Of a stretch of DNA of 47,379 nt, positions 1 to 31,119 are shown piece by piece. The position numbers and the translations under genes were made by a program. Location: positions 721,507 to 768,885 of the forward strand of contig WELB01000051.1 in the NCBI GenBank assembly GCA_009602725.1, read 5' to 3'. The stretch's first letter is position 1; every line of letters begins with the position of its first letter. The stretch comes from Spirogloea muscicola. Taxonomy: Eukaryota > Streptophyta > Zygnematophyceae > Spirogloeales > Spirogloeaceae. The notes beneath the pieces are model-generated. The model did no database searches. It was not told where the DNA came from and worked only from the letters and a program-made list of their open reading frames with translations.

Positions 1-3000
1 GGCGGCGGGCGGCGGCAGCGTTGGCGACGGCGGCGGCGCGGCGGCGCGCGAGGCGCTGCGGCAGGCGGTGGGCAACGCGCTGGAGCGGCGGCACTTTGTG
101 CTGCCGTCGTTCCGCATCTATGGCGGCGTGGCGGGGCTGTACGACTACGGGCCCCCCGGCTGCGCCGTCAAGCAGAACGTCCTCGCCTTTTGGCGCCAGG
201 TCCGCCGCGCAATTGCTGCCCCGGTGGCTCAGTGCCCAAACTCTGGCTTCTGGCCTTGAAGCTCGGCGGCAAGAGTTGTGGGTGTGTTCGTAGTCAGTGA
301 CGGAACCAATCGTCCTTACCGATGTGAGATCTCTTATTAGCCATAGGCTCTTCTTACTGAAAACCCAGTCCATAACAGTAGTGCCTTACTGCGGTGGCTC
401 AGTACCCAGAGTCTGGTGTCTGGCCTTGAAGCTCGTTGGCCAGATATGTGGGTACCTTACTCTCGTGACTCGACAGGGGCATCGGTCCTCCATCATCATT
501 AGATTTGAATTGAAGATTGCGAACGTTACTCGCTGTGCAGCACTACGTGCTGGAGGAGAGCATGCTGGAGGTGGACTGCCCCTGCGTCACGCCCGAGGCC
601 GTGCTGCGCGCCTCCGGGCACGTCGACAAGTTCACCGACCTCATGGTCAAGGACGAGAAGACCGGCACCTGCTTCCGGTCCGGCAACCCTTATAGGAACC
701 CACATTACAGGAACCCACATTATAGGAACCAATCATAGGAACCCATTATAGGAATCCAATTCACTGAAGTCCTTGGCTAGCACAAACACTGCAGACCCGA
801 CTTGGCGTCCGAAATATCGCCGCCACTGCGGCGCCAATGCTATCGCCGAGCTCATGTGGGCGCTGTCGTTGCTGCCGCTGCAGGGCTGACCACCTGCTCA
901 AGGACCACCTGGAGGAGGTGCTGGAGCGGGAGCCGCTGATGCCGGCCGAGCGCCGCGAGGAGCTGCGGCACCTGCTGGCCACTGTGGACGAGCTCGGCGC
1001 CGACGACCTCGGCGCCGCGCTCCGGCGCTTTGGCATCTGCGCGCCCGACACGAAGAACGAGCTCTCGCACCCGTACCCCTTCAACCTCATGTTCTCCACC
1101 ATGATCGGCCCCTCAGGCCTCCTGCGAGGGTACGACTACCATTTCCTTTCTCAACGCTCACCATTGAATGATCAGTCAAGCGCTGACCCTCTCGTGGTTG
1201 CCTCACAACTCCTGTGTTTCTTTGCGTTCAGTTCAAGGCTGGCCTGCGCAAAGCTGGCCTGCGCTAATTGGCACGAATCTCTGAAGCTGTCTCTAAAGCG
1301 TTGGACTGAGGTACTTGGCCGTTGCACCGCATCCTTGTGGCGTGTAGCTACCTGAGGCCGGAGACGGCCCAGGGCATCTTCGTCAACTTCAAGGACCTGC
1401 TGTACCACAACGGCAACAAGCTGCCGTTTGCGGCCGCGCAGATCGGGCAGGCCTTCCGCAACGAGGTGGGCTTTGCTCCTTCGCGTCCAACATCGCTGTG
1501 CGGCAGTAAACGTATCCATTACTTCAGCACGTCAGCCTGAAGGATGCTCTTCTCGACCTCACAGATTGCGCCGAGGGCAGGCCTCCTGCGGGTGCGCGAG
1601 TTCACACTTGCGGAGATTGAGCACTTTGTGCACCCCGAGAACAAGCGCCACGCCAAGTTCGCCAGCGTCGCAGATCTCGAGTTCCTGCTCTACCCCCAAG
1701 CCGAGCAGCTGGGCCCCAAGACGCCCGTCCGCACGCGCCTCGGTGACGCCGTTGCAGCCGTGAGCCCCAAGGAGCTATCCTGTCTTTGGTAACGTGATAC
1801 GAAGAGGACTGACTTCTTTAAGCCGCGGCACAGTTCATCTGAGGGCCTCAAGTCATGACAAATAAACACCAGGATTGGCGTCATGAACCTTCACGTCTCT
1901 AAGGGGCGGTTTGGCTTTAGTGTGTGGCCAGAGAGTGAGTATAACTTGGTCCAGGTATCACAAAATTAAGAAATCAATCAAGGGCTGAGGTTTGGTTTGA
2001 GGGCATGGCAAGCCCTGGCCTGGTGCTGTTGCTTATCATGCACCTCGCTCTCGCTCTCGCGGCTGGCTTCTCAGACCTGCAGCTGAGCGTGCTGAAGGAA
2101 AGGCGTCTTGGACGCAGGGTATGATCGACAACGAGACGCTGGGCTACTTCATTGGCCGCACGTTCCTCTTTCTCACGGCGCTGGGCATCAATTCAGAGCG
2201 ACTCCGGTTCCGCCAGCACCTCCAGCACGAAATGGCGCACTATGCCGCCGACTGCTGGGATGCGGAGATCGAGTGCTCCTATGGCTGGGTCGAGTGTGTT
2301 GGCCTTGCTGATCGCTCTGCGTATGACCTCAAAGCGCACACTGTATGTGACATGGGAGGCCTAGACCCTCTCAAGCCTCACTCCTTCTATTGTCACTTCT
2401 GCAACATCAAGCGTAATCACGAAATGTGTGTGTTTGCTGCTGTTGCAGCGATTGGTCAAATGTCCTATGAGACCTTTTGTCCATGTTGGAACCGTAGTTT
2501 CAACGCCCACGTTGTGAGATCCGACTGCAGGTGTGGGCCTGACCGGAAGCAGCGCAGAGCATTGGTGGCGTGGCTGCGTGCAGGAGAAGAGCAAGGTCGA
2601 GCTTGTGGCACATGAACGCTTTCTGGAGCCAAAGGAGATGCAGGTACGACAAAAGTCGGCGGCATCTGCCATTGGCGCTCATTGTGCACAACTCTCAGAT
2701 GCTTTTGCTTTGCGGGCTGACCGACTCGAGCTGCCAAGCAGGTTCTAGAGGTGGCGGTCAACAAGAAGGAGCTGGGTAAGTGCTTCAAGAAGGACGCGAA
2801 GGTCATCCAGGAGGCCCTGGAGGTCCACTCTTTGACCCAAACCTCTTAACCCTAAATCCTAACTACCTAAAAAGAAAACCCTAAACCTTAAACGGCAAGC
2901 TTTTGTGTAGTGTAGTGACCATTGCCGCTTGCCGGCCGCTCTCCATCAGCTGTATGCAGCCAGAGAGCCAATGCTCAGTCTTCACTACGTGAAGCAGCAG

Positions 3001-4161
3001 GCCAACACCCAAAGCACGCAAGGATAGAACGCCACAACAGGCAGAAATATTCTGGGGTCTCACCAGTCCTACAGTTTAGAGTAAGTTTGTAGGGTCCAGG
3101 GGGTCGGGGTTTTGCTTAGTGTCTCGCACAGAGAGCATGAGCATGTGACCCTCTTTGCTCCGGTCCTCAATCTTGAGGCCTTATTGCGCCAGGCTTTGCC
3201 GGAGGAGGAGGCGCTCATTATGAAGAGCAAGCTAGCAAGCGAGGGGTTGGCGCAGCTGACGATCTACGGCACGGGCCAGGAGTTCAGCATCACCAAGGAC
3301 ATGGTGTCCATCTCAAAGGAACTCAAGCGCCTAACGGTGAGGAGGAAGCTAATACTTCTGGGCCCCACTGGCCCGTCAGCTTTGACATCAGCACTCGTAT
3401 GCTTCAGAGTCTCAGTGAATACTGATGGTTGTTGACATGATTCTGATTGCTTGCGATGCAGGGTAGGAACTTCACGCCGTCAGTGATTGAGCCGTCATTC
3501 GGCATCGGGCGCATCATCTACTGCTTATACGAGCACTCGTTTTATACACGCGAGAACAGCGAAGACAAGACCGTCTTCCGCTTCACGCCACTCGTCGCGC
3601 CAATAAAGTGCACCGTCTTCCCGCTTGTTGCAAAGCCGGCCATGGAGGAGGAGGCTGCCAGGATCTCCAGGCTACTCACACGCGCCGGCCTTGCCAACAA
3701 GATTGACACAACTGGGACAAGCATAGGTACTCTTGCCCTGTCAGTGTTCTTTGTTGTTAAGTTTGGTAGTACATTAGAGACACCCCGGTTGATTGATCTG
3801 GTCCTGTGATTGATGCTTCCTGTCAGGCAAGCGCTATGCTCGGACAGATGAGCTTGGGGTCCCATTTGCCATCACGGTGGACGAAGATTTGGACGCTCCT
3901 AGCACTGTCACTCTTAGAGACAGGGACTCCACATTGCAGGTGAGCTCTGAAATCTCCTGCTGGCAGATCAGGGGAAGCATGCCTGGTGCTGTTCATTGCT
4001 TTGTGCTGGATCTAAGATTTGCTGAATCACAAGTGCAGGTGAGAATCCACAAGGACGAGGTTGCTGGAGTGGTCAAGGACATCTTTGACGGTGTGACAAG
4101 CTGGCAAGCTGTCACACTTAAATATCCAAGGGTTGTCAAAGACGTAGACACAGACTCCTGA
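1..4161 (+). CDS. GlyRS: Glycyl-tRNA synthetase, 5' end cut by window
   Basis: Class II aminoacyl-tRNA synthetase that charges tRNA-Gly; eukaryotic single-chain (alpha2) type. Twelve exons were modelled from homology and GT/AG sites: 1-199, 541-677, 884-1129, 1348-1465, 1565-1759, 2118-2342, 2584-2643, 2742-2822, 3193-3336, 3462-3726, 3827-3939, 4039-4161. They join into 634 codons plus a TGA stop. Visible landmarks are the N-terminal GLYDYGPPG segment, the motif 2 region (AFRNE split from the arginine by an intron), motif 3 [11 protein letters not shown], and the C-terminal anticodon-binding domain with [17 protein letters not shown] and the [12 protein letters not shown] strand. The start codon and any targeting peptide lie upstream of the window, so cytosolic or organellar location cannot be judged. 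It converges with the AAA gene to its right. Confidence 0.95.
223..454 (+). repeat. Diverged direct duplication in GlyRS intron 1
   Basis: Two copies of about 62 bp, 223-284 and 393-454, offset by 170 bp. Both begin GGTGGCTCAG and share TCTGGCCTTGAAGCTCG. They lie wholly in intron 1 and differ at roughly one position in six. No coding potential was recognised. Confidence 0.7.
691..757 (+). repeat. Short tandem repeat, TATAGGAACCCACAT unit
   Basis: About four imperfect tandem copies of a 13-16 bp unit (TATAGGAACCCACAT and variants) at the start of GlyRS intron 2, 13 bp after the donor site. This is simple slippage-type sequence with no gene. Confidence 0.7.
2846..2893 (+). repeat. Interstitial telomere-like CCCTAAA motifs
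   Basis: Degenerate CCCTAAA-type units in GlyRS intron 8, including CCCTAAATCC and ACCCTAAACC. The plant-type telomere repeat is TTTAGGG/CCCTAAA. Similar tracts recur near 30244-30296 and in the F-box gene intron at 35888-36090. Confidence 0.5.
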
Positions 4162-4663
4162 GAGTTGCGACGAGATTGACTGTGCTTGCTGTGCAGCTCG
4201 CAAGATTTGTTGTGACGTACTTGACGCCTTTGATCTGTGCACATATGCCTTTGAGACGTGCACTGTGTCGTACATGACGCACGGCTGTCTGCACTTTCAA
4301 GCACATGCACTGCAGCGGCAGCTGCAGATGCTCAGAACTCCGGGAAAATGGGAACCAGCTCTGCAGACTAGCTATGGGCTCTTAACTGTGGTCTGCAAGC
4401 GCTACGCGTGCACAGGCATAACCCAGCACCATCGTTTCTTCGATGAGAAGGTCCCTGCAAGAGCTTCACATAAGGCTAGAGATAAAACGTTAACTAAGAA
4501 GATAATGTCATCTATCAGCTTGACGTAACGAGTGGCTTTCTCAAAAGCGCCGCGGATCATTCCTCGTGCTTTTGCCCATCAAATACCAGGCCTCTTTGGC
4601 AAAGTAACCCAACACTCAGAGGAGAAGCTCGCTCCTAAGGATAATAGCACCGTCTGAATGTGG
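4162..4663. other. Convergent intergenic spacer
   Basis: About 500 bp between the GlyRS stop on the plus strand and the AAA ATPase stop on the minus strand. It presumably holds both 3' UTRs. I see no gene, no convincing repeat and no strong poly(A) signal. Confidence 0.6.
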
Positions 4664-7600
4664 CTACAAGAAATAGGTGAGGGCCTGGTTCCTCCTCGAG
4701 CCGCCCTCCCCGTACTGGTCATTCCACTGCCGCAGCTCTGCCATACCGCCACTGTTGGCAGCCGTGCTCGCCGAGACCTTCCTCATGTCATCAGTTTATA
4801 CGAGTTGATGAGAGTATATCAGAAAGAACCTCTGTAACGGGAAGAAAGTCACAAGCCTCTACTTGACAGGTTAACTCAGCACCAGATTGTAGAACTTGTA
4901 GCAAGCGGTGCAGCATGAGGCAGCTCGACAACAAGGAGATGTTCATTTTTAGATGGGTAGCTTCCTCGGACCCGAGTAACAAGACAAGTCACAGCAAATA
5001 CAATATTGAGCTGATCAAGAAACAAATGATCATAATGAATATGCGGCGCATACCTGCTCTCGGGCCTTAGCAATGTCGGCCATGGTCACAGGCCGGAGCT
5101 CGACGGGCTCCTCCTTCTTCCTCACGTTGTCCCTGCTTGCTCGCTCCTGGGACGTCTGCGGCTGCAGCTCTGCCGCCGCCTCCTCTGTGCTCTCCTCCGG
5201 CACTGCCTCCTTGTCGAGATGTAATTGACTTCCCGAGGCTCCAGCCTCTGCATCGGACGTCTGCACGTTGTCCCTGCTCGCTCGCTCCTGGGACGTCTGC
5301 GGCTGCAGCTCTGTCGCCGCGTCCTTTGTGCTCTCCTCTTCCACCGCCTCCTCTTCGCCGTGTGATTGACTTCCCGAGGCTCCGGCCTCGGCAGAGGACT
5401 CTGTGTCATTTTCACGTGGAGCCTGGCTGTTCCTGTCATATTCAGCATCTCCGGAATCTCTGAGAACCTGAACTGGCGATTGATCATGCAGCTCGTGCCT
5501 CTGCACACTTCCGTCCACCTCAGTGCCTTCATGGTCCTGTTTGCCTGCAATGTCCTGCTCACTAAGCTCCTCCCTGGCGCCATCCTCTCTCAGACCGTCA
5601 CCCTGCATCACGTGTCTTTCGTCGTCTGCCTTAGATAACTCCTTTGTTTGTGGGCCCCAACTATTTTCGCCTGCGCTGGCTGCATTGACCTGTTCCTCCA
5701 CACCTCGTCCTGCTCCTTGCGAGCAAGGTCTCAGCACTGGTGTGTGGAGAGGCTCCTCAGGCATCTCCCTGGACGCACGTTCTCCTGCTTCTTGCCCTGC
5801 TGCATCCTGCACAGTTGTTGCAGTGTCATGGTCTGCGTTGCAGCTGGCCGCCTCCACTGACACTAGCTCGGCTTCGGAACAGGCTTCCATCCCTGGACTT
5901 TGCTGGCCATTCTGATGACCACCATTACTGGGTGACTGAGCATCGGGGTGGGCACTGGCCCCTGCCGGCGCCGAGCTTGACAATGGAGCAGGGTCGCATT
6001 GCTCCTGCTCCTGCTCCTGAGCAGCAGAAGCGTCTGTGGGAGCTGCGGAGCTGGCCTCGCTATGGCTCTTCTCCTTCCTTGCTGCCGCCTCCTGACAGAG
6101 TAAGCAAGGAAAGCCATAACTCAGCAATCGCATATTCACAAGAAGATTGTTAGTGGTATGCAAATGATTGCTCGGCTGCAATTATATGAGCTACAAAACA
6201 TGTGAGACTTGTAAGCAAGAGCTGATGGTCCAGCTCCTAATGAACAATGAGTGGAGCTGGTAGCTTAACAAACATAGCCACTGCCGTGCACGCTTGCATC
6301 AAGTGCTTCTCCAATCTGCAGATCATCATATCATACAGTCATGCTGAACGACCCTGAAAAGGAAGGCTAGACCACAATTAACAGCAGCCGTGACACTTAT
6401 GGAGCCGCTCTTTGACATGTACCTTCTTCTCGTCCTCCAGAAGCTCTCTAATCGGCTGATAAGCTGCAGCCACGCAGAGATTCTTGAGGTCGCTGCCAGA
6501 GTAGCCCTCAGTGGAATTTGCAAGCTCCGCAAAGCTGAAGGCATCGTCCAGCTTCTCTTTCGCAAGTATGACCCGAAGTATCTTCTCCCGGTTGGCTGCA
6601 TCTGGTAGGTCCACCATCAGTCTGCCGTGCAGACATGCAACGGGTTTGGATTGTCGGTCAGATGAACTGGTGAACAGAATCCAGCTGAAATATCTCCATG
6701 TCACACAGTCTTGTATGACCGCTTCAGGATAATACTACTGTGCCCTGCTCACAGTGCAGCATGCCAGGGACATCAGATCACCAAAGAAACATCTTCAGCA
6801 AGGTGGGTGTACGTCTGTCAAACCTTCTGGGGAATCTGCGGATGATTGCATCGTCCAAGTCAAAGGGCCGGTTTGTGGCGGCGAGCACCAGCACCCGCTC
6901 GCCCGCCTTGGTGCGCAGGCCGTCCCAGTGCGCCATGAACTCGTTCTTCACCTTGCGCATGGTCTCATGCTCCCCCCACTGACCCCGCTTGCCAAGCAAG
7001 CTGTCCACCTGCCACACAATGAAGCATTGTTTGGATTAAGGATCTAAGGTGATGAGCAGCAGCAGCAATCACTGAAGTCAATGTTGGACTGTAGCTGGTA
7101 GGCTATCGTAACCAAGGAACAATACCAAGAACCTCCTCCAGGCCTTGAGTAACAAACTTAGTCCAATATAAGTACAGAACTTTCACGTCAACTTGAGGTC
7201 TTCTCAGAGTAGTGTCAGGAGTATCCCACTAAGGCAAGAGTGACTGAGTTGGCCGTCTGCATGCAGGACCAGGTCTTCAAAGTCAGCTGAAGGGCCGTGT
7301 GTACCTCGTCAATAAATACTACAGTGGGCGATATCTTGCTGGCCACCGAGAAGATAGCCTGGATGCTCTTCTCGGCTTCACCCAGCCACTGTACACTCAC
7401 AGACACATGCAAAGAGTCAATGCGCAGCCTTCATAAAGTCATTGAGGCCCCATGCATGCTTAGCTTCTCAAAGCGTTGGTTTGACAAACAAGCTCCACCA
7501 TGAAGAGAACTAATATTTCACTTCAACACATAAGTGCCCAATTACTCAATTGGTTATCAGATTCTACAATTCTCCGCACCTTGGAGAGGATAGAGGACAT

Positions 7601-9655
7601 GGAGATATTGATGAAGTTGGCACCGGCCTCGGTTGCGACGGCCTTGGCCAGCATTGTCTTGCCAGTGCCAGGGGGCCCAAAGAGCAGGATGCCACGGCAT
7701 GGCCTGGTCAGCTGTCCCTGGAAGAAGAGCTCGGGCCGCTGCAGCGGGAGCATCACCAGCTCCCGCAGCGCTTCTTTGACTCCCTCCAACGCCCCAATCT
7801 CATCAAACGACACGCCAATCTCGTCCGCTTGCACCACCTCCGACAGCATTCGCTCCTCGAACTTGTTTACAGCCGTCACCCTCTGCATCAAAGAAAAGGC
7901 CACTGATTGATTGTTCAATGAGCACCTCTCTATCATTACAATGTCTCACTTGTACAATTGACTCATCATGATAGCACAGCACCAGCCATTTACAGACTAG
8001 AATCAAAGGACGAGCCTATGACGAGGCTTATCCTGCTTGGCAAATCAGCGCCAAGGTGAAGTTGCAGTTCAGATCAATGGGAGGCACCAAGCAGACCTTG
8101 AGTTTCCGCTTTGAGACGCTCAGCGACAAATTCGAGGGCTCTTGTTGGGGCTCCGCTGCTTCGGCCTGAGCACAAGGGTGCAGCTCAGTCCGTGCTCATC
8201 CATGAAAACTTTCGCGTCTCCTGAAGACAGGATACTGCTGCATTCAGGGACAGCAGCAAGGGAAAGGGAAGAGGTGTTCCTACCTCCTTCAGCGATGGTA
8301 AGTCTTCCTGCCATGCCCTTAGCATTTGGACGCCATACATGACACTGGACGCGTGCAAATATGTCATATGGAGGTTCAGTCACTTGTTAGACATCGAGCA
8401 CTCTCGACAGAGCCAGCTGCCTATAGCAAAAACTGTAAAACCCAACAAACTTTGCTCATAAGTCATTATTAAGGCCAACACCTGGACCTGGGATAGGTAT
8501 TAGGGGATTGGTGCAGCAACGTAAAGGGGGTGCATTATCAAGAACCTTCAGACTGGCTGACAGACTCTCCGTGGGTCACCTTGAAGCAGGCAGAACGAGC
8601 TGATTTTCGCGCTGCACTGGGTCTGCGCAATCCATCAGGTAGGTCCCCGTTGCCCAGCCAACAACGTTGTCGGCGTCTGCAACCAGGCAGCAAGGCGGCT
8701 GGGGTTCAGCAAGTCGCCAGGCTAAAGAATCACATCAGTATAAATTTAGAGTTGGCCTTGAGCATCAATCTGTTTGATTCTTTATCCAATCCAGCAATTT
8801 GGAAACCATCTGCAGAACATGCAAACCATGAGAAAGGAGCACCACAACGGCTAGCTGATTGAGATGCATTAGCACAAACATTAGTGTTAGGCTCTAAACA
8901 ACTTGTCTCTGTTTCAAGCGGAATCTTAAGACTAGTGGCAAAAGTCACATGCATGTCAAGAAACCTGGCAAAAGTCCTGAACAAGTGATAAATTGGCAGA
9001 TGCCAACCATGCTCATCAATGTCCAGGTTGTTCAAGTCGATGGCATTCAGGTCGTCGCACTTCATATTGCTCCACTTGAGGGCCTGGACCAAGTGTTAGC
9101 CAGAGAAGGCAAGACGCCTTAAATCTTAGCAGCGCTGTTGACTATACTCATGCGTTTTGCTGCAGTTTGAAGGTGACCAATATTCCCTTTCCAGTCTCCA
9201 AAATGACGCCGATCAAATCTTGGGATTGCAGCAGCAGACTGGCCGAAGTCGAGCCATCTTATCAATTAGTGGAGCAATGTCGAGCAGCCCCACTTGTTCC
9301 AGGAGCCTGAGACTAGCGCGCGCAGTGAGAAGCTCTTTGTCCCTCTCCATCTGGCGCTCCCACACCGCTAGGGCTGCCCCTTCCTGCACACCATTGGAAC
9401 ACCGTCCATCAGATGCAGTAAAGTGGACACACGCCTGGTTGTCAGCAGTGTATCAGGCCCACATGTCCTTGGTAATGAGCTGCTCTTCACAGACCCGTCT
9501 TCTTATAACAGAATCTTGTAAAGTAACATCAAGGGATAACAATGTGAGCTGGCTACCTTGGGAGGCTGGATGGGAATGCAATTTGGAAAAAGGTCGTCGA
9601 TCGGGTCAACTGCTGGCGTGGGCTCATACGCGGCCTCTGGGCTGGGTGGATGGTC
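4664..9655 (-). CDS. AAA-type ATPase, plant At4g28000/DAA1-like clade, N-terminus missing
   Basis: AAA ATPase of the plant branch related to spastin/MSP1 proteins; its substrate is unknown. Twelve minus-strand exons: 9557-9655, 9294-9383, 9008-9083, 8580-8676, 8284-8344, 8097-8165, 7580-7882, 7305-7388, 6824-7008, 6423-6621, 5054-6091, 4664-4777. They join in frame into 804 codons plus TAG. Visible features are a clade-specific N-part ([27 protein letters not shown]), Walker A GPPGTGKT near residue 233, Walker B VVFIDE, sensor 1 [13 protein letters not shown], arginine fingers RRFPRR, and the family C-terminus [20 protein letters not shown]. The 346-codon exon 5054-6091 replaces a family linker of about 25 residues. 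The first modelled exon has no start codon and aligns to the middle of family members, so the usual N-terminal region is absent. See the junction with the YbeY-HAD gene. The 69-bp exon 8097-8165 is the least certain. Confidence 0.88.
5123..5397 (-). repeat. In-frame 141-bp tandem repeat in the AAA gene
   Basis: Two adjacent units, 5123-5263 and 5264 to about 5397. Each encodes about 47 residues starting near EAGASGSQ and running through [15 protein letters not shown]. The period of 141 bp is a multiple of three, so the frame is kept. The units differ at many acidic and serine positions, so the duplication is not recent. They sit at the C-terminal end of the low-complexity insertion. Confidence 0.85.
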
Positions 9656-9945
9656 CTGAGTATTGAATTGGTAAAAATTAGCAGGTCACTACTGCAGAAG
9701 GGCAAGCTGTCTGGAGGAGGGCAACCATCATACACTTTCCATTATAATTATCAAGAGGCCCAGCGCCACATTTCCCAAGTGTAATTTTTCAAGAGCCACA
9801 AACGAGTGTGTGGACTGGCACAAGCGCATGCAGACAGCCTGGGGTTGGCGCTGCTAAACAGCGACCCTATCACTTTGAAAGATGCTGACAGATAACACAC
9901 AGCATGTATGTTGTGCGCTTGCAGGCTGTAGAACTAAGAAGGCAC

Positions 9946-12047
<2,102 letters not shown>

Positions 12048-12283
12048 GGCTCGGCTCGCCTCCGGGCTTGCCACGGGATGAGCGACGGAGGGCCTGCGTG
12101 GCCCAGCCCAGCCTGCCGCGGGGGTGCTGACCAAGGGCATCCCACTCGCCATCTTCTCGAGCGCGAGCAGGAGCAAGTGCTCGTGGTGGCCACTTGCCGC
12201 AGCCGAAGGCAGCAGCCATGCAGCAGCCATGGCGCGGCCTGCACTCTCTCGCGAGTGGGCTGCGTGAGCCCGGGAAGCAAGTG

Positions 12284-12392
12284 CTCGCCCGTTGAGGATA
12301 AGAAAGAAGGTGCTCGCCCGTTGAGAAGAAGAAGGCTCGCCCATAAAGAAAGAGGGGCTGGCAAAGCCAGCCCAAAAAGAATGGACAATGTC
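12284..12392 (+). repeat. Repeat family 2, GCTCGCCC...CCAGCCC type
   Basis: Family 2 consensus by eye: GCTCGCCCRTTGAG, a short purine spacer, then a hairpin GGGGCTGG-nAAAG-CCAGCCC, then AAAAAGAATGRACA. This copy carries three GCTCGCCC starts before one hairpin. Other copies lie near 12506-12556, 12862-12922, 13117-13215, 13236-13300 (hairpin first), 14081-14138, 15137-15200 and 33938-33976. Copies share the hairpin but differ in flanks. Confidence 0.7.
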
Positions 12393-12944
12393 CAAAGCCA
12401 AAGAAAGAGGTGCTGAAAAAGGACTACACTACAAAAGTGCAAGACAGTGCAGAGGGAGATGCAGATGGCTGCTCAGTATCCACGTGTGAGCAACAGCAGA
12501 TCAGTTGAGATAGGGGCTGGAGAAGCCAGCCCAAATAAGAATGAACACAGTACGAGAAGGGGGCCAGGCGCAAGTGTATCGAATGCGCCTGGCCGTCTCG
12601 CTGCAGAGGTCTATGGCCCGGGCGTTGCACCTTCGTGCCGGCAGAGCCCTCGCTGCTGCCTCTGGCTCTGGCCAGGGGACCCACTTCAACGAGCCTAGCA
12701 TCTCCGACCTGCGGTTGCTTAGCAGATGTTACTGAGTGATTCTCCTGTAGCTCTTTGGATTTTGTCCATTCTTTTTTGGCTGGCTTCTGTCAGCCCCTCT
12801 CTTCTATGAGCGAGCTCATTCCTTGCCAGGGGAAGCGCTAAGAGAAACAAGAAGAAATTGCTCGCCCATTGAGAACAGGGGCTGGAAAAGCCAGCCCAAA
12901 AAAGAATGAACAGAGTACGAAACAAGCACACTTCTCCCTCAGAC

Positions 12945-13000
12945 TGTCCATTCTTTTGGGCTGGCCTTTCCCAGCCACCAGTCAATCTGGCCGCGCTTCC
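12945..13000 (+). repeat. Repeat family 1, TGTCCATTC...GGCCGCGCTTC type
   Basis: Consensus by eye: TTGTCCATTCYTTT, hairpin GGGCTGGCCTTTCCCAGCC, then ACCAGTCAATCTGGCCGCGCTTC, about 57 bp. Further copies, whole or partial, are at 30899-30941 (-), 30983-31040 (+), 31047-31078 (-, hairpin end only), 33787-33810 (+, distal end only) and 33843-33899 (-). High similarity between distant copies suggests recent or ongoing spread. Confidence 0.75.
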
Positions 13001-13515
13001 TCTCTTAGAAACGAAGTAGCTACGAGTCACTCAGCAACCCCTGCTAAGCAGCCGCAGATCAGAGATGCTAGGCTCCAAGGGAAGCAAGCGCGGCCACATA
13101 AACTGCCAGGGAAGAAAGTTCTCGCCCATAGAGAAGAAGAGGGGCTGGCAAAGAAGAAAGTGCTCGCCCGTTGAGAATAGGGGCTGGAAACGCCAGCCCC
13201 AAAAAAGTCAGCGAAGGACGAGAAGGGGATTTTCTTGGGCTGGCTTTGCCAGCCCAAAAAGGGAAGAGCTCGCCCATAGAGAATGGACAATATCCAAAGC
13301 CAAAGAAAGAGGTGCCGAAAAAGGGACTACACTGCAAACCACGGCAAGAAACACGCGACGATGCAAAGGAGAGCTCAATACCCGCGAGTGAGCGACATCA
13401 GGTCGGAATAGCTTGCTGCAGGGAATGAGGCACTCCACCGACACCCAGAGGCGGCGGTCATAGCACGGCCTGCTCTCGGCTTGGGCAAGGGAGCGTTGAA
13501 GCGATACTGCCGGGC

Positions 13516-13820
13516 GCATGCGGAAGACTTGTGCAAGCGAACCGGCGGCGTTGAAGCCGGGCAGCGCCCCTGGCAGACCCGGCCGCCGATCAATGGCCTG
13601 ACGGGCCAGGGAGCGCTGGGAGCGCTGGAAAGAGTCTGTGACAGCCGCATGCGGAAGACCTGCGCAAGCGAGCCGGCAGCGTCGAAGCCGGGGCAGCTCC
13701 CCTGGCTGGACCTTCTGCAGCAGCTTGCCCGGCAGGCCATCGATCGTCGGCAGGTCACCGAGTGAGCTGCCCGGCGACGACGCTGCCGGGTCGCTTGCCC
13801 AGGTGTTCAGCATGCGGCTA
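13516..13820. repeat. Repeat family 3, GCATGCGGAAGAC units, two direct and one inverted
   Basis: A unit of about 60 bp, starting GCATGCGGAAGACYTGYGC and ending near GAAGCCGGG, occurs at 13516-13578 and 13647-13706. An inverted copy ends at about 13820. Related sequence appears at 14977-15027 and, inverted, near 12560-12610. All three frames of the inverse give repeated short peptides such as LAQVFRMRL, but no long open frame persists, so I treat it as a non-coding dispersed repeat. Confidence 0.6.
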
Positions 13821-15394
13821 TCCACATCCTTCTATGGGCCCAGGCTCATGCAGTGCACTTGCGGGCAGGCCGTGCTATGGCTGCTGCTCGTTCTGGTGCC
13901 TCTTTTCCAGCTACAACGAGAGCAAGCTCCCATCCATTGTAGTCTCTTGCATGACTGTGTGCTTTTAGCGACTTTCGGCCCTTCAGACCTTGTCCATCAG
14001 TTTCGGGCTGGCTTTTCCACAGCCCTCGCCTTTTGAAAGAGCTCACTTTTTGGTTCCGGGCCCCTTCAGAAAGAGAATTGCTCGCCCATGGAGACGAGGG
14101 GCTGGCAAAGCCGGCCCAAAATCAATGGACAAATAGAAGGAAAGACCTCGTCCACTATTTCAGGGCTGGCTTTTCACAGCCCCTCGTCTCCTTACCTGTG
14201 TGCTTTAGGGCTTATCTGGCCCCTTCAGACTTTCTGGGCTGGCCAATCACAGCCATCGCCCACTATTGAAAGAGTCTTTCTCTCTTTGAATGAGCCCACT
14301 GCACTCACAGCTTTCTCTCACAGTCATCGCCCACCGAAAGCAGGTCCTTCTCTCCCGGGAATGCTTTGAGAGCTTTACGGCCCCTTCAGACCTTGTCAAT
14401 TGTCGGGCTGGCTGAGCCCTCGCCCCTTTGGAAGGCAACTTTCTCTCCCAGCACTGATGCAACAATGGCCGTGCGGAAGAAGAAAGAAAGAAAGACTCTT
14501 CCAGTGGAGGGCGATGGCTCCGGCAGCTAGTCTGTTGGACTTGAGGCTCCTCAGTCGTAACTACTGAGTGGTCCAACCTTCCCCGTTCTGACACAGCATC
14601 TTCAGGCCCCTTCGTAGCTGCTAAGCGCGTTAGGCCCCTCCGTCATTTGGCCCCTTCGGACCTCTGTCAATCCTTTTCGGGCTGGCTTCTCACAGCCCTT
14701 GCCCAATTGGCTCCCCATTGGGATAGCCACTTGATGGCTGGGATTGGCTGGCCCAGAAAAGGAGTGAAGAAGGTCCGATAAATGTCAAGGCACAGAGCGA
14801 CTCAAGTGGCCACGGGGTGCTCAACTAACCTCTACTGAACAGCCTCAGGTCAAAGACACTAGTTCCGAAGTAGCGGGTCCACTGGCCCGCTACTGTCAAT
14901 CTGGAAGCGCTTTTTCCCCTGGCCAGAGCCAAAGGCCGGCACACTGATGCAAATCATGTGCCACGGACCGCAGACAGGCGCATGCGATAGACCTGGGCGA
15001 GAGGGCCTGCCGCGTTGGAGTCAGCCTGCACCCCGTGATGACGTCGGGACACCCACGCCTCGCAAGAGCCGGGTGCAGGAGCTCGAGCTGGAGCTGGAGC
15101 TGGAGCCACCGAGCGCCGAACGAGCAGAAGAAAGGGCTCGCCCATTGAGGATAGGGGCTGGACAAGCCAGCCCAAAAAAGAATGTACAAAGAACGAGAAG
15201 GGGGCCAGAGGAAGCCAGAGGAAGCGCTAAGAAACCAAAGCACACAAAGAAAGAAAGCAGCTACAAATTACTCAGTAACCCCTGCTAAGCAGCCGCAGAT
15301 CAGAACAAGCCGTGAGGCCAGCAATGCGACGTAGCGGCAGGGAGCCGCGCCGTCCCCCACCCCGGACCCGGCCCGCGCTCCGGAGGCCCCACCC

Positions 15395-15433
15395 GCCACG
15401 TGGCGAGCCCCGGCTCGCGCCCCGCCACGTGGC
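15395..15433. promoter_or_regulatory. Two perfect G-box palindromes upstream of sucrose synthase
   Basis: GCCACGTGGC occurs at 15395-15404 and again at 15424-15433, 29 bp apart start to start, roughly 80-115 bp before the sucrose synthase ATG. CACGTG G-boxes bind plant bZIP and bHLH factors. Two identical 10-bp palindromes in a short GC-rich promoter are unlikely by chance, but occupancy is inference. Confidence 0.6.
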
Positions 15434-15511
15434 CCCCCGGACCCGATAGCCCCCCAGGCTGGCTGTCGTCACCGGCAACGATCAGCGGCCGCACTCGCCG
15501 CCGCCGCCGCC

Positions 15512-18500
15512 ATGGACTCCCGCGCGGCGCCGCGGCTGGCGCGCGCGCGCAGCCTGGCGACGCGCGTGCGGCAGTCGCTGCTGGAGCACCGCGACGAGTG
15601 CATCCTGCTGCTGTCGCGGTGCGTCGCCGCTGGCCAGCACCTGCTGCAGCCGCACCAGCTGCTCAACGAGCTGGAGGCCGCGCTGGACGCCGCGGAGCAG
15701 CCGGACGTGGTGCGCGACAGCGACTTCGCCAAGATGTTGCAGAGCACGCAGGAGGCCGTCGTCATCCCGCCCTACGTCGCGCTCGCCGTGCGGCCCCGCC
15801 CCGGCGAGTGGCAGTTCCTGCGCATCGACGTCGACGAGCTGGAGGCCGAGGAGCTCTCCGTCGCCGCCTGGCTGGCCTTCAAGGAGAGCCTGAGCAAGCG
15901 GTGGGGCCGTCGCCGCGCCGCGCCCGCAATGCATGCTCTCGAGCTGCGCAGTGCTTCTGACGACGCGCCGCCGCAGTGCCCATTGCACGATATACGATTA
16001 ACTTGCTGGCCTGTCATCCGACGACTGACCTGCGCCGTCGCCGCGGCAGCGAGGTGGGGGAGTATCAGCTGGAGCTGGACTTTGAGCCGTTCAACGCGTC
16101 GTTCCCGAAGCTGACGCAGTCGCGGTCCATTGGCAACGGCGTGCAGTTCCTCAACCGCTTCCTCTCGTCGCGCATGTTCCACCAGGACGCCAGCCTGCAG
16201 CCGCTGCTCGACTTCCTGCGCCTCCACAAGCATGCCGGCCAGGTTGGCGACGCCTGCCCCGCCCCGCTACACGGCTCGCACTGGCTCTCCACCTGCGAGC
16301 CCAGCGAGTGACGCCCGGCTGGCCTCACGAGACTCGGAGCCGGGCACATTGGGGGCGCAGACGCTGCTGATCAGCGAGGACCTCAAGGACATCGGGACGC
16401 TGCAGTCGTCGCTGCAGAAGGTGGACGAGATGCTCCGGAAGCTGGACCCCGCGACGGGCTACAAGGACGTGGCCGTCAGGTGCGGACTGCCAGCGCGTCC
16501 ATCGCGCGCGTATGCAATCGCTTGCTCTCGCGGGCAGCCAGCGGTCAGCACCATGGCTGTGCTCCTGCCGTCGTGCACGAGTGGCAGTCTCATGGACCGC
16601 TGGCGGGGGCCGCGGTTGCTGTGGGCCAGGCTGCGGAAGCTGGGCCTGGAGAAGGGCTGGGGCGACACGGCAGGCCGCATCCTGGAGATGGTGCGCATGC
16701 TCATGGACATCCTCCAGGCGCCGGACGCGGGCACGCTGGAGCAGTTCCTCGGCCGCCTGCCCATGATCTTCTCCGTGCTCATCCTGAGCCCACACGGCTT
16801 CTTTGGCCAGAAGGGCGTGCTTGGCATGCCCGACACCGGCGGCCAGGTGGTGTACATCCTCGACCAGGTGCGCGCGCTGGAGGTGGAGCTCCTCAAGCAC
16901 TTGCAGATGCAGGGCCTCGACTCCATCCGCCCGCAGATCGTCGTGGTGTGTGCCCTCCTCCCTCCACTCTCAGCGCTGCCGCTGCCAAGCGCCTGGGCCC
17001 ACGCATGCATGGCTTGCGGCCGCTGGATTCCCTCCATGCCCCCAGGTTGACCCACACCCTGGCGGGGGCCGCTGCAGGTGACGCGGCTCATCCCAGAGGC
17101 CAAGGGCACGACATGCAACCAGCGGATTGAGGCCATCGAGGGCACCGAGCACTCCCGCATCCTCCGAGTGCCTTTCCGCAGGCATGACAATGGCGAGCCG
17201 CTGCAGCAGTGGGTGTCCCGCTTTGACCTGTGGCCCTACATCGAGCAGTTTGCTGATGTCCGTCTGGCCCTGCACCTTGACACCCTGCTCCGGCCCCTCA
17301 GGCCCATGCTGCTCACAGGGACTGTGGTGGTGCAATATCTGGTTTTTCTTGAGTGGCTGCTGCCAGTCGCTGCACGCCTCTGCTGCACTGTTGAAAGCTT
17401 TCTACAGTGCAACAGTGCTCTCTCCGGTCCTGCGCTTGCTTTCACGCTGTGCCTTTGGAAGAGCCCATTGCAAACTGGGATGGTAGCTGAGGATATTGTG
17501 GGCACCTGCGAGGCCCTTGCTTCCAAACCCTTGTTGCAAAGGCTGAACCTTTGCTCACTGGTTGAGCAGCCTGATGACCCGCACTGGCGCAGGATGTCAA
17601 GAACGAGCTCAAGCAAGAGCTGGGGGGCAATCCTGACCTCATCATTGGCAACTACAGTGATGGCAACCTTGTGGCGTCTCTTCTGTCTCACAAGCTGGGC
17701 ATCACTCAGGTCCGTCAGCTCCTTGCCTCCCTGTGCTGAAAGTCCTGTGCTGAAAGTGGTGGCTGCCCTTGGTTGACAAAGGAGAGTGATTGAGGGGCTC
17801 AAATAGCTGACGCGTCTTGCATGAGCTTGTGGTGGGCGCTGCAGTGCAACATTGCGCATGCCCTGGAGAAGACCAAGTACCCAGACTCAGACATCTACTG
17901 GCAGAAGTACGAGGAGAAGTACCACTTCAGCTGCCAATTCACGGCGGACCTCATTGCCATGAACCACGCAGACTTCATCATCACGTCCACATACCAGGAG
18001 ATTGCTGGCATGTGAGCCTCGAGGCCAGTCCTACCCCTCACCTATGATCAACTTCTCCAGTAGCACGCCTCGAGGACCCAGCCTGACGTTCTTCTGTTCC
18101 CCATATTGCTCGCGCTGCAGGGAGGATACCGTCGGGCAGTATGAGAGCCACGCTGCGTTTACCATGCCCGGTCTTTACCGCGTCGTAAATGGAATCGAGG
18201 TCTTCGACCCAAAGTTCAACATCGTCTCCCCAGGGGCCGACCCTGATGTCTACTTCCCCTTCACGGAGGCTGACCGGCGTCTCAAGGACCTGCACCCTGC
18301 CATCGAGGAGCTCCTGTATGGCGAGGGCGACAGCGCGGAGCATACGTAATGCGCTCCCATCTCAGCTTGTCTCTTGTGTCTTGCATTCCAACTCTGGACA
18401 GCACCCTCAGAACCATACGTCCAAATGCATGGAATCGTTTGCCACAAGTACTCCTGTCTGTGCTGACTTTGCTCTTATATTGGTGCGTGCCCACAGTGGC

Positions 18501-19768
18501 CAGCTCGAAGATCGCAACAAGCCCATCCTTTTTTCCATGGCCAGACTCGACCGCGTGAAGAATCTCACGGGGCTGGTGGAGTCGTTTGCCAAGAATGACC
18601 GGCTGCGCAAGCTGGTCAACCTGGTAATCGTTGGAGGCCTTTTGGACAAGTCAAAGTCGGGCGACCGCGAGGAGATTGACCAAGTGAGTATCTTGCAGAA
18701 AGCATCACGCAGCTTCTCTGACATAGCGGCAGCTATATTTGCATCTTTGCCTTGAATTCAAATGTCCAAGCCTGAAACCTGGATCTGTGATCGCAGATTG
18801 AGAAGATGTATCAGCTGATAGAGGAGCACAATCTGCACGGCCACATCCGGTGGATAAGCGCGCAAAAGGACCGTATCCGGAATGGCGAGCTCTATCGCGT
18901 CATTGCTGACTCGCATGGAGCATTTGTTCAGGTTGCACACCTCAGGCACTGAGATATCTAGTGTACAGCACGGGTCAGACACAACACCAGTATTCAGCAA
19001 GGGCTTATTGAGCATGAGTCTAACGTGTCTGACAGCGTGACACATACTTTGCCTTTTGTTGCACAGCCTGCACTGTATGAAGCCTTTGGCCTGACAGTGA
19101 TCGAGGCCATGACGTGCGGCCTGCCCACTTTTGCCACCTGCCATGGGGGGCCGGTAGAAATCATCGAGAATGGCAAGTCGGGCTTTCACATCGACCCATA
19201 CCATGGAGAGGCAGCTGCAGAGCTCATGGCAGATTTCTTTGAGGAGAGTGCCAAGGACACGTCCAAGTGGGAGGCCATCTCGAAGGGCGGGCTCAAGCGG
19301 ATATTTACCAGGTCAGATGCGAATGAGACATCTACATTGTAAGATGATGTGCAACGCATGCTTTAGATCGTTGAGAGCGCTGCAGGTCTGAGTACATCGA
19401 AGTGCTTGCACGATGCAGTTACACCTGGAGCTTGTATGCGGAGAGAATGATGACTCTGTCTCGGGTCTACGGTTTCTGGAAGTACGTGTCCGGCCTGGAG
19501 CGGCGGGAGACACGCCGCTATCTGGAGATGTTCTACCGACTAAAATTCCGGCAGCTTGTAAGGGCGCCGACCCATTGACTCATCATTCCCAGTGCAACCG
19601 TGGTATTGTGCTGGCACAGGTCAAGGAACAAATCTAAAGTGCTGATTAGCTAACTTGCTTGATTATCAGGCACAAGAAGTACCGCTTGCCCCTGAGGAGG
19701 ACGGTGGCTCCGAAAAGAGCAAGCAGGAGATGAAGACAATCGAAGCCAATAAGTCGCCTGGCTCATAG
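15512..19768 (+). CDS. SUS: Sucrose synthase
   Basis: Reversible cytosolic GT-B glycosyltransferase (GT4 family): sucrose plus UDP gives UDP-glucose plus fructose. Thirteen exons: 15512-15900, 16050-16242, 16361-16479, 16630-16945, 17078-17257, 17593-17709, 17845-18011, 18121-18345, 18497-18683, 18797-18931, 19067-19311, 19419-19557, 19670-19768. All have GT/AG sites and compatible phases, giving 836 residues, the usual family length. The N-terminal RARS motif places Ser14 at the conserved SnRK/CDPK phosphorylation position. Other landmarks are LSPHGFFGQ near residue 288, [37 protein letters not shown], and the E-x7-E motif [10 protein letters not shown] (Glu681/Glu689). The C-terminus is short and acidic/lysine-rich. 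The only SUS copy in this window; two G-boxes precede it. Confidence 0.96.
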
Positions 19769-20061
19769 CTGACTTATGTCTCCTACTTTACAGCCCTAGT
19801 AAATGCGCTCTCTAGAGTCGAGGGCCAACTTTCAGTACAACTCTGTATACACAAGCTCCCATTGCCCTGTTGCTGCTTCTGGCTTGTCTATCTGATATTT
19901 GCGCATCTCAAGCGCTTTTGTTGTCAAAAGTGACCATGAAAAGAGCCTAATTAGCTCTTACAATAGCAACCTCTCATCAATTTCTCATGAAGTGCCGGGC
20001 TCATGGTGCAATCAAAGAATGCCCTGTGGGTGTTGGAAGCTGGTCCTATTGGGGCACCCGA

Positions 20062-22194
20062 CTACATTCGAATGACGTAGGAGTTGGCATGTGTGACGTA
20101 CCTAACCCAGCGGTATGGGTTGTATGACTTACTCTTTTTCATAATCTGCAAGTATCGCACCTGCACCAGGATGATTTTACACGGGAGGTCACATCCGTTG
20201 CACAGTGGAGCTTACGCATGTCAATATCACATCACAGACCTTTGCAAGTAGGAGAGAATGAAGACCTGGAGGCGTGACGCATTGTACATAGGTATGCTGA
20301 AGGTCATGCTCACAGGTCCCACATCCTTCTTCAGATTACCTGCGTACAGGCAGAGCCGACAAGACCTCAGCCATCACTCATGCTCTCAGTCTGCTGCAGC
20401 AGCATCTCATGCACATGGAGCTTGTTACAAGCCCAGGCTTTGGGCTTTGTTCTGACCACTGCGCTCCTGATTGAGGATGAGCTTCACTCGCAGGACATGC
20501 TCCGAGGCCCCAACAATCTGCCCAGAGCCCGAATTCGAGAATAGGTGGGGATCCGGGTGATGAGTCGTACGCACAGTGTGTAGCGAGCGTAGGCTTCACA
20601 CTGGTCTCACAAGCCCTCACAGTATGCAACTCAGTAGGTCAAGGGGAGCAGTGCAGCGGCGCACCTTCTTGAGCATCCACTCCATGGACTTCGTGGCCTC
20701 TTTGTAGTCAGTTGACTGTCCTATAGACGCTGCTTCCATCTCAAAACTGACCCTGGCATCCACGACCAATGAGGAGCGCGACTCAGTTCCTGCCACCCCC
20801 AGGCATGTACATGCTAGAGACTCCACAGCTTGGCGCCAGCCAGGCTGAAACCCAATGCTTTGCATAAGAGTGAAGGGCTTCATTGCACTAGCCTGGAGGT
20901 TGACTTGGGCAGCGGAACACGGAGCACAACAGAGTTTGCGCTTGCGACGGTGGGAAAGTCTGCGCGAACTTTCAGAATCAATTCAACCTGCAGGACGGCG
21001 ACAGGAATGTTAACGGCTTCCATAGATCGGGCAAGAGCTGATGAGCTTTTTGCATTTGCACAATACTTTTCAGAGGGAGCGACAAAAGGGAAGAGGAGAA
21101 GAAGGCGAGTGCCTTGAACGGGCCTGCCTCCTCGATGACGGGGTAGACACGGAAGGGCGGTTTGAACTCCTGCGTCATGCGGTAGTTCATGACCGAAAAT
21201 TCCCCGTCGGGCGGGACCTACACGCAGCAGCCGGCCATTGGCGCAAGCTCGAGCGTGTGAGCACCTACCTGCTCACGACCGCCGGGGCGACAGCAAGAGC
21301 CGATTGAGGGGGCCCCGGAGGCCGTAAGGCTGACCAGCTGACCAGCGCAAGCGTGCGGTCGAGGTCGAAGTCGTCCAGCCGCACGCTCTCGTGGAAGTTG
21401 CAGTCGTCCAGCAGCACCATGCCCGCGCCACCGGAGCCGGCGCCGTAGTCCGGCCCAAAGGAGGATGAAGTGGAGGAGTCCCGGCCGATGGCGAGGTCCT
21501 CGTTGAGCGCGACGCGGATCTCGGGGTTGCCCGTCAGGTAGCTCTTCATCTGCAGGCTGCCGTCGATCTCGGACGTCAGGATGTAGCCGCTGGCGTTGAA
21601 GGTGACGGAGATGCGCTCGACGAGGTCGACGAAGATCTCCTCGCGCTTGCGCCCGTGGCCGTCGGTGGCGACCACGGACTTGGTGACAGCGGTGGAGGGC
21701 AGGCGCTTGATGCCCTGCAGGAAGAGGCCGGCGGCGCCGAGGCTGGGCACGCGCGCGGCGTCCACGACCACGGGGTCGTTGAACACAAACGCCTTGAGCG
21801 CCTCGGTTGACGTGGACTGCGGGAAGCCGAAGTCGAGCATCTCGTCCAGCAGCTCGTAGACGAGCACGAAGTTGCGGCGCACGCTCTCCTCGCTCAGCAC
21901 GCCCAGGTAGTCCTTGGCCACGCGTGCGCAGCGCTGCAGCAGCTCCAGCACCAGCGCCGGCGGCGGCGAGCCGCGCGTCGTGGCGGCGAAGAGCAGCCCG
22001 CCGGCGCGCAGGTGCAGGTAGGAGACGCCGTCGACGGCGAACACGGGCGGCGCCTCGCCGCCGCCGGCGCCGGCGCCCCAGAACTTGACCTTGCGGAAGA
22101 ACACCTCCGCCGCGCCCTTGCCCACGTCGCCGCGGTAGTCCCGGAAGATGATGCTGTCGCCGCGCGGCGACAGCACGAACAGCTGCGAGATCAT
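20062..22194 (-). CDS. AP4M: AP-4 adaptor complex subunit mu
   Basis: Medium (cargo-recognition) subunit of the AP-4 trans-Golgi adaptor, which sorts vacuolar cargo in plants. Seven minus-strand exons: 21343-22194, 21113-21217, 20893-20987, 20665-20752, 20457-20517, 20266-20339, 20062-20160. They give 457 residues against about 450 in the family. Exon 1 holds the whole longin-like N-domain (MISQLFVLSPRGD start, LLQRCARVAKDYLG, FVLVYELLDEMLDFG) and the start of the mu-homology domain (REEIFVDLVERISVTF, SYLTGNPEI, CNFHESVRLDDFD). Later exons carry NYRMTQEFKPPFRV, FEMEAASIGQSTDYKEA and the terminal NPYRWVRYVT. Introns 2 and 3 need GC donors (ttcaag|gcactc and tccag|gctagt); no GT alternative keeps both phase and homology. 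Divergent with UTP12. Confidence 0.95.
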
Positions 22195-22549
22195 GGCTGC
22201 CGCTGCGCTGCAGCTTCTGCAGCGCAGGGGCGCTCCGTGGGAGGGCTGAAGCTTCAGCGCGGCGACAGCACAAAGGGCTGCGAGATCATGGCGGCACACT
22301 GCAGCTGCGGCCCCCGGGCGCGGCGTGGGAGGGCTTCAGCGCGGCCGCGCGCGGCGCCGCGGCGCCATGGCGGAGGGAAGGAGGAACGGCAGCCCGGCGA
22401 GTTCCTTTGTGGGCGCCCAACAAACACATCACCCAGCTACAGCCCACTGGGGTTTAAGCCCTCGGCTCCCCGAGGGGTGCCCGGAAAGCAGACCCAAGTG
22501 TGCGCCCAGTGGGGTTTAAGGCCCCCCGCCGCCGGCGCGGCCGGGCGCC
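22195..22549. promoter_or_regulatory. Bidirectional promoter region, AP4M / UTP12
   Basis: 355 bp separate the divergent start codons of AP4M and UTP12, so both promoters and 5' UTRs must share it. Next to AP4M it contains a tandem duplication of that gene's start region. Next to UTP12 it has two similar 20-bp blocks, 22442-22461 and 22504-22523, each reading GCCCASTGGGGTTTAAG; the second ends 27 bp before the UTP12 ATG. No TATA box is evident. Confidence 0.6.
22254..22289 (-). other. Upstream ORF, duplicated AP4M start (11 codons plus stop)
   Basis: A minus-strand ATG at 22289 opens an ORF reading MISQPFVLSPR and then TGA. It differs from the first eleven residues of AP4M (MISQLFVLSPR) at one position. 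It arises from a tandem duplication with a 95-bp offset (22163 onward against 22258 onward on the plus strand). It lies 95 bp upstream of the real start and would be in the 5' UTR if transcription begins upstream of it. Confidence 0.6.
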
Positions 22550-25500: not shown

Positions 25501-27280
25501 ATGGGGACAAGTTTGAGCACCTGCTGACACTCGAGGGGCACCATGCTGAGGTCTGGGGCCTGACTATAAGCAGCCACGGTGACTTTTTCGTGTCCACCTC
25601 CCATGATCGCTCCATCCGCCGCTGGGACCGCACTGAAGAGCCATTCTTTGTTGAGGTACTGTATACACTCATCTGGCCTTGCCATGATGATATGACACTG
25701 CATTTGGGTTATATCTATGCGCTTGCTGCCATTTTCTGATGGAGGAAGCTCCTCGCTGTGTGCAGGAAGAGAGGGAGAAGAGGCTCGAGTCCATGTTTGA
25801 GGAGACTTTGGAGAGCGAGCCTCTGGCAGCTGAGCAGCAGGAGGCGCCTGGTGACAGTGCTGTGGGGCCAGCAGGGAGGCAGACGCAGGACACTGTGACA
25901 GCAGCAGACAATATCATCGCTGCTCTAGATCTTGCCGATGCGGAGATGGAGCGAGTCTCCTTGCTCCAGGTTGGTATGCCAGTGCTTTGCTGTTTGTGAC
26001 ATTGCATGGATGGACATTGTGCAAGAGCATTGCCATTGACTGCAGGATGGACTTACAGCTACTCTTCTCAGACTGATGGGAGAAGGAGGTCATGCAGGCC
26101 CAGAAGAAGACTGCTCCGGAAAACGTACTGATGCTGGGACAATCTCCAACCCTGTACGTGCTCGGGGTGCTCTCCAAAGTGCGGACAAGCGACCTTGAGC
26201 AAGCTCTCATTGTAAGCCTTGAGCTTCCAGCTCCAGGGTCACTGCCTTTCTCAATCTGAGACTTCTCTACATTCTCCTATAGTTGCCATGGGACTTGCCA
26301 CAGATTGCGCTTGACTTGCACTTGACTTGAGCCAAGAGGAACCTGACTTTGTGAGGCTCGTTGCCTGTTTCCTTGAGCCCACACCGAATCCCTGTTTCTT
26401 GTTATTCTCAGATGCTGCCGTATAGTGATGTGCTCAAACTCCTGGGCTTCTTGGAGCAATGGCTCTCTGAGGGCAGTCAGGTAGCATGATATGGTCGCAC
26501 CACGTCTGCTTATGAAGGGGGGCATTGCTGCGCGGTTCAGTCAGCCATGCGAGAGTTGTGCAATGCGAGCAGCCATGGAAACAAACAGACAACCCACCCT
26601 GTCCTTGCTCCGCAGATTGAGCTGACGGTCAGGGTGGCCGTTTTGCTTCTACGGATGCACCACAACCAGCTGGTAGCGACACCCTCTGCTCGCGGGTCCC
26701 TCACATCCCTCCACGGTCATCTTCGCACCAGAGTGCAGGTATCGTGGAAGCAGGAGTGCATGTGAGCACGATCACAGAAGGAGATGCTCTTAGAAAGACG
26801 TACTGGGCCCAGACTGGCCCAGTGAAGGAGCGAGGAGGAGAGTGCTGTTGCAGTCTGTCAGCACAGCTGGTTGGGCTTGTCCTAATTCACTTCTATTCTG
26901 ATGCAGGACCTAAAGCATTGCATGGGTTTCAATCTGGCAGCCATGGCCCATTTGCAGGTAACCCAGGCAACCTACTCACTTTCAAATGACGTCTTCGTGA
27001 GTGTGCGCTCAGTAGCATATGTCAACATCAATCAGCCAGGTTCCACTTCAGAGTACCAGGAACTCTTGGAGTAGCTGGCTGACCAGCATGTGAATAATGA
27101 TCGTAATGTCTTCTGGAGGTTCTTGTGCAGCATGTGCTTGAGGTTCGATCTAGCGGCCCAGTTTCTGATGCTGCTGCCAAGGTGCTCGAGATTCGAGCGA
27201 AGCTAGCCAAGGGTCGAGAGAAGATTGTTGCAGAGAAGATGCCAGAGCATCGGACGAAGAGGAAGAGGCGGACACCTTGA
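22550..27280 (+). CDS. UTP12: U3 snoRNP/SSU-processome WD40 protein UTP12 (WDR3)
   Basis: Nucleolar WD40 tandem-propeller protein needed for 18S pre-rRNA processing. Exons: 22550-22736 (holds the N gap), 22847-23460, 23577-23772, 23912-24022, 24235-24369, 24489-24734, 24827-25012, 25133-25314, 25424-25655, 25766-25969, 26086-26211, 26412-26480, 26616-26738, 26907-26957, 27131-27280. The start MVKAYLRY is the family signature. Many WD repeats are clear ([85 protein letters not shown]), followed by the UTP12 C-terminal helical domain ([17 protein letters not shown]) and a basic tail RTKRKRRTP. Three introns use apparent GC donors, after 22736, 23460 and 25314. Up to about 50 residues are lost in the gap. 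Confidence 0.95.
22610..22669. other. Assembly gap in UTP12 first exon
   Basis: Sixty Ns directly after the codons for [20 protein letters not shown]-type N-terminus. Family proteins have roughly 50 residues between this point and the next recognisable segment (SVTSLARAP). The true missing length is therefore probably longer than 60 bp, or an intron is hidden. Confidence 0.8.
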
Positions 27281-27429
27281 TGTCCTCATTGCTAGAAGTC
27301 GGCAGTGCTTAGTGATGTTAAACCATTTAGGCCTTCACCAGGCCTACTGTGGGCCTTATGGAGTTGCCTGCTGAGGTCGTCATTTGTTACGATTCGTGCA
27401 ATATATATCAAGAATTGGCGCAGCTCCTC

Positions 27430-30224: not shown

Positions 30225-30243
30225 CTGCCTCAGAATCGCCGTT

Positions 30244-30296
30244 GATGTAGGGTTAGGTTTTAGGGTTTCAGGGTTTGGGGATTCAGGGGTTTAGGT
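30244..30296 (+). repeat. Interstitial telomere-like TTTAGGG motifs
   Basis: Degenerate run of TTTAGGG/TTAGGGTTT units, for example GTAGGGTTAGGTTTTAGGG, in the presumed first intron of the xylosyltransferase gene. Not a true telomere: units are irregular and total about 50 bp. Confidence 0.6.
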
Positions 30297-31078: not shown

Positions 31079-31119
31079 TAAAGTGGCTCTCCCAGACCCT
31101 CTTCTTCGACATTGAGTTT

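Follow-up and report, generated by a model that had tools for sequence, protein, structure and literature searches.

The window, that is, the whole stretch of 47,379 bases that was analysed, forms the end of contig C51 in a draft assembly of 153.1 Mb and 471 contigs, parts of which read N. Its genes are rich in introns and include the 5′ part of a gene for a YbeY-HAD protein and the 3′ part of an AAA ATPase gene, which meet on the minus strand across a single intron-like stretch (Table 1). YbeY followed by HAD is an arrangement known from plant plastids (PMC9181182, section 4.3), and the genome probably belongs to a green alga.

Table 1. Positions of the gene parts, colinear blocks and probable breakpoint in the window
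Feature	Position	Strand	Description
Likely remaining AAA exons	4667..6108	-	Acidic/low-complexity stretch and C-terminus with stop; by eye, edges approximate
AAA ATPase gene, 3′ part	6423..9655	-	10 modelled exons; DUF7751, Walker A GPPGTGKT, Walker B VVFIDE, lid
First AAA exon in the window	9655-9557	-	33 residues; acceptor tcag, donor gtagcc; phase 0
Chimeric intron	9656..9945	-	80 nt of HAD donor side (9945-9866) and 210 nt of AAA acceptor side (9865-9656)
Probable rearrangement breakpoint	9865..9866		Left, AAA intron; right, HAD intron
YbeY-HAD gene, 5′ part	9946..11760	-	Seven modelled blocks
YbeY-HAD blocks	11760-11512, 11406-11311, 11122-10874, 10811-10739, 10573-10473, 10329-10237, 10017-9946	-	
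Last HAD exon	10017-9946	-	GLRVYGFGGSVVHSAELQPEVSTE; acceptor atag, donor gtgcct; phase 0
Colinear block, left	1..9865		C196:156257-166161 (+); in two pieces, C84:224668-214986 (-)
Colinear block, right, in pieces	9866..47376		C84:115356-164522 (+)

Two truncated genes

The YbeY domain is nearly complete (PF02130, E = 2.7e-35, profile positions 25–128 of 129 in Pfam) and contains the sequence HGTLHLLGYDH, in agreement with the Hx3Hx5H motif given for YbeY in PMC9181182, so that both marks of a YbeY endoribonuclease are present. The block at its 5′ end lacks an acceptor, and its frame opens only at 11760, with an in-frame stop just upstream in both C51 and its counterpart on contig C84, and an N/poly-A gap just upstream as well. 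This gap occupies 11820–11996 in GC-rich surroundings at the 5′ end of YbeY, consists of 57 N, a T, 118 A and a final N, and resembles one left by the assembly; the start of YbeY is thus only putative. The C84 match to YbeY that contains two TGA codons spans a modelled intron.

Downstream of YbeY, the Pfam match to Hydrolase_3 extends only as far as position 56 of the 255 in the profile, and the HAD domain in the window breaks off after motif II, at the beginning of the cap, leaving the set of motifs I–IV of a Cof-type HAD hydrolase incomplete. The missing pieces are recognised in C84 as Hydrolase_3 positions 165–204 and 206–255, which we take to be the regions of motifs III and IV. The edges of the last HAD exon are conserved in C84, and the residues of this exon and of the two before it (10573–10473 and 10329–10237) are identical between C51 and C84. 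Over 313 codons, the YbeY-HAD comparison gives a dN/dS of 0.23, a value that includes a poorly aligned linker with indels between C51 and C84, which is taken to raise it.

The other gene part has the Walker A, Walker B and lid elements of an AAA ATPase, with Pfam matches to DUF7751, AAA (PF00004, 1–130 of 131) and AAA_lid_3 (PF17862, 2–36 of 45). Among solved structures its best relatives by sequence are CDC48/p97 (E about 1e-98) and, more weakly, MSP1 (about 2e-69), and among known proteins it is closest to plant AAA ATPases of the DAA1/At4g02480 type. All ten modelled exons are equal in length and in AG/GT edges across C51, C84 and a third contig, C196, the edges of the first exon in the window included, and the AAA exons that precede the cut are recognised in both C84 and C196. 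Branch-specific dN/dS is 0.056 for C51, compared with 0.063 for C84 and 0.058 for C196. On C196, ATG8-like exons were seen by eye upstream of the AAA gene (locus positions about 7880–8450).

The original prediction, made from the letters of the window, had a HAD domain ending after motif II in a phase-0 exon, an AAA protein beginning in its middle with another, and HAD motifs III/IV and the AAA N-terminal region missing from the window, all of which agrees with these comparisons. A search of the genome for the missing exons placed HAD parts on C84 and on contig C235 and AAA parts on C84 and C196, and none of them was seen between 9655 and 9946, where their presence would have spoken against a fusion.

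Copy number and colinearity

The regions examined are each present in the genome as two or three diverged copies, with a divergence between copies of roughly 14%. On the AAA side there are three copies (C51, C84 and C196), about equally diverged, with pairwise dS values of 0.20–0.24 over 421 codons. The HAD side has two copies (genome searches, two matches each), and YbeY is present only on C51 and C84 (genome search, four exon matches). That the AAA region occurs in triplicate, with similar distances between all copies, hints at a polyploid or hybrid genome, and such an origin followed by the loss of some copies is plausible; an assembly of 153 Mb would equal three sets of about 51 Mb.

The left part of the window is colinear with C196 (85.9% identity) and with two blocks of C84 (85.6% and 83.6%). 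On the right, 9866–11776 matches C84:115356–117306 at 88.2%, and 15161–47376 follows C84 in pieces (79–93%) up to C84:164522. The largest stretch without alignment in the right block, about 11777–15160, has a C84 counterpart that is largely N, and colinearity can therefore not be judged from 12300 to 15160. This latter stretch holds many repeats with short, partly palindromic units (e.g., GGGCTGGC...GCCAGCCC), and pieces related to them are found in other loci examined.

A probable breakpoint within an intron

When window positions 9000–10300 were used as a genome query (five matches), the matches split at query positions 866/867, equivalent to 9865/9866 in the window, and the discontinuity is a single point within the 290 bp between the two gene parts at which colinearity changes partner. 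By eye the join is blunt, and the 40 bases flanking it on either side show neither microhomology nor a shared repeat; it contains no N. The corresponding introns are uncut in C84, where the HAD intron (115311–115436) is 126 bp long and the cut would fall 81 nt in from its donor side, of which 80 are kept in the window, while the AAA intron (214969–215196) is 228 bp long and the cut falls after its 17th base. The chimeric intron has GT-AG ends and phase 0 on both sides. The DNA break thus lies within introns of two separate genes that are joined in the same orientation (both minus) and the same phase (0/0). In C84 some 100 kb separate the HAD and AAA genes, which point in opposite directions. 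C84 and C196 remain alike through the AAA side of the break, indicating that the uncut AAA gene is the shared state.

Both cuts in the window lie in introns of phase 0, so that splicing from the HAD donor to the AAA acceptor would stay in frame, and the frames of the modelled exons are open. From its sequence, the locus could possibly give rise to an in-frame YbeY-halfHAD-AAA transcript and protein. With one random break in each modelled gene part and the right orientation as a simple null, the chance that introns are hit in both genes is 0.33, and that those introns also share a phase 0.19 (calculated with cut introns of 120 and 230 bp, where the C84 values are 126 and 228 bp), so the compatible phase is not remarkable and selection is not needed to account for it.

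The complementary HAD half

The C84 sequence just beyond the break (113856–115355), used as a query, returned 42 matches, consisting of itself, C235 and 40 short matches to a dispersed repeat. Positions 80654–82145 of C235 match bases 1–1493 of the 1,500-base query at 87%, ending beside the break, and the parallel between the two contigs extends over C235:80654–83000 and C84:115348–113019 (86.7%). Taken together, the HAD halves on C51 and C235 therefore leave just 7 bp of C84 sequence unaccounted for at the cut. To the left of 80654, C235 instead matches C35:465394–468439 (87%; two matches in all) and encodes the 3′ part of CDC23/APC8 (PDB CDC23 homologue, E = 2.4e-23), for which Pfam reports only TPR families. 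At this second join the 3′ parts of HAD and CDC23/APC8 stand head to head with ~11 bp of filler (by eye), and neither N nor, by eye, a shared repeat is present there. Both halves on C235 are promoterless, and no decay was evident by eye in their aligned exons.

That the HAD halves on the two contigs share one cut site to within 7 bp is the main evidence for a real break as opposed to a false contig, and a single HAD copy broken once, its ends given different partners, argues for a real multi-break rearrangement.

Search for a third join

A three-break exchange predicts a third join, between the 5′ half of the AAA gene and the 5′ half of CDC23. This join was not found in DNA and protein searches of the assembly, which counts against the rearrangement. 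The AAA 5′ sequence was recovered only from C84 and C196 (three DNA matches, with a query in which the first 433 of 1,500 bases were N, and two protein matches), and the CDC23 5′ sequence beside the cut only from C35 (one match). The more distant flanks do have extra copies, that of AAA 5′ on C423 (92%; five matches, namely itself, C84, C423 and two short ones) and that of CDC23 5′ on C8 (86%; 40 matches, namely itself, C8 and 38 short repeats). A query nearer the CDC23 cut gave 42 matches, of which one was itself, one was C8 (92%, bases 1–1161 of 2,900) and 40 were short repeats. C8 ceases to match C35 1.84 kb short of the cut and continues into a dispersed repeat and then N; the change from C35 homology on the CDC23 5′ side to repeat lies around position 1969 of the C8 locus. 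The third join has been lost, has escaped assembly or is concealed, in which case the repeat and N region of C8 may cover it; as the assembly has N stretches, its absence is not proof.

Discussion

Most probably, the two joins result from a real chromosomal rearrangement with several breaks, affecting one of the copies in which the region is present. A cut inside an intron would have split a YbeY-HAD gene copy; the 5′ fragment would then have become attached to the 3′ part of an AAA ATPase gene copy (window 9865/9866), and the 3′ fragment to that of a CDC23/APC8 gene copy (C235:80654). We infer that both joins stem from one common event. The blunt join in the window, the ~11 bp of filler on C235 and the 7 bp missing between the HAD halves resemble what end-joining of double-strand breaks would leave. 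Any chimera would be made from the YbeY promoter, provided that the chimeric intron is spliced. Its half HAD domain would be catalytically dead, given that motifs III/IV are missing; the sequences of YbeY and the AAA module appear intact. Putative uncut copies are present elsewhere (YbeY-HAD on C84, AAA on C84 and C196, and CDC23 on C35), and through this redundancy the loss may be tolerated.

Among the alternatives, an artefact of assembly is unlikely but retains the most weight. C51 and, separately, C235 would then be false joins, made by chimeric molecules or by the assembler, and all three genes would be uncut in the cell. The draft has N gaps, with a single N and a run of 118 A within the window itself, the expected third join was not found, and the lack of evident decay in the orphaned coding halves would follow equally from an assembly error or from a recent event. 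Against this, neither join shows N or, by eye, a shared repeat, and two independent false joins would have to hit one HAD intron within 7 bp. The same observations, with the complementary half cut within 7 bp, give no support to the collapse of the assembly that the original prediction had offered as an alternative to fusion.

A simple inversion, in one copy, of the segment equivalent to C84:115356–214985 would fit the geometry of the window join relative to C84 exactly. It predicts a reciprocal join of HAD 3′ to AAA 5′, whereas the HAD 3′ half has CDC23 as its partner and the searchable assembly contains no additional AAA 5′ copy; the inversion is accordingly disfavoured and has very little probability.

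It is equally doubtful that the chimera is a selected new fusion gene, expressed and kept because an AAA motor tethered to YbeY is useful, an idea that is itself compatible with a real rearrangement. Both parts are open, their splice sites are kept and the AAA branch dN/dS is as low as in the uncut copies, yet a recent event would look alike, compatible-phase intron breaks arise by chance at ~0.19 (one break per gene, this orientation), and the orphan halves on C235 are just as undecayed, so that conservation here is no sign of function. The lack of decay is most simply read as a sign of an event too young to be informative, and a selected function for the chimera is not supported. The fuller proposition, of a chimera in a young multi-copy genome that is expressed, spliced across 9656–9945 and acts as a plastid-targeted endoribonuclease with its own AAA motor, is highly improbable.

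A deletion between neighbouring genes, one of the two causes offered in the original prediction, has in its favour that the missing exons do not fit in 290 bp, but is rejected as next to impossible, since with the genes ~100 kb apart and in opposite directions in C84 it is unable to explain the join; of the YbeY-halfHAD-AAA fusion proposed there, the joined gene and its compatible phase stand at the level of DNA and the deletion does not.

If the rearrangement is real, the locus captures at base resolution a young event with several breaks, in which three genes were cut, each with an uncut copy kept, and one possible in-frame fusion was produced by chance. Extra copies could buffer such damage, and the case would show that fusion proteins can arise without selection. 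It would also call for caution, as a domain architecture taken from one copy of a multi-copy genome may be the scar of a breakpoint. The spot looks like an ordinary rearrangement scar and not a new kind of protein system.

Both partners are housekeeping genes whose products resemble known plant proteins. The YbeY endoribonuclease of plant plastids, as laid out in section 4.3 of PMC9181182, carries a C-terminal HAD-like domain; in the gene described here, too, a HAD-like hydrolase domain comes after a YbeY with Hx3Hx5H, and while the C84 copy runs on into the remaining HAD domain, the window copy has the AAA region in place of HAD beyond motif II. With plant AAA ATPases of the DAA1/At4g02480 type, the other part has in common DUF7751, the AAA module, the lid and a C-terminal motif recognised by eye, though the window copy is without the N-terminal part.

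Genes fused intron to intron are known to arise by chromosomal rearrangement, as in tumours, and this locus is most probably a new example of that known kind. As in tumour fusions, the breaks lie in introns of two genes, a 5′ part is joined in phase to a 3′ part and the promoter would be supplied by the 5′ partner; here, the putative fusion affects one copy in a multi-copy, algal-type genome assembly.
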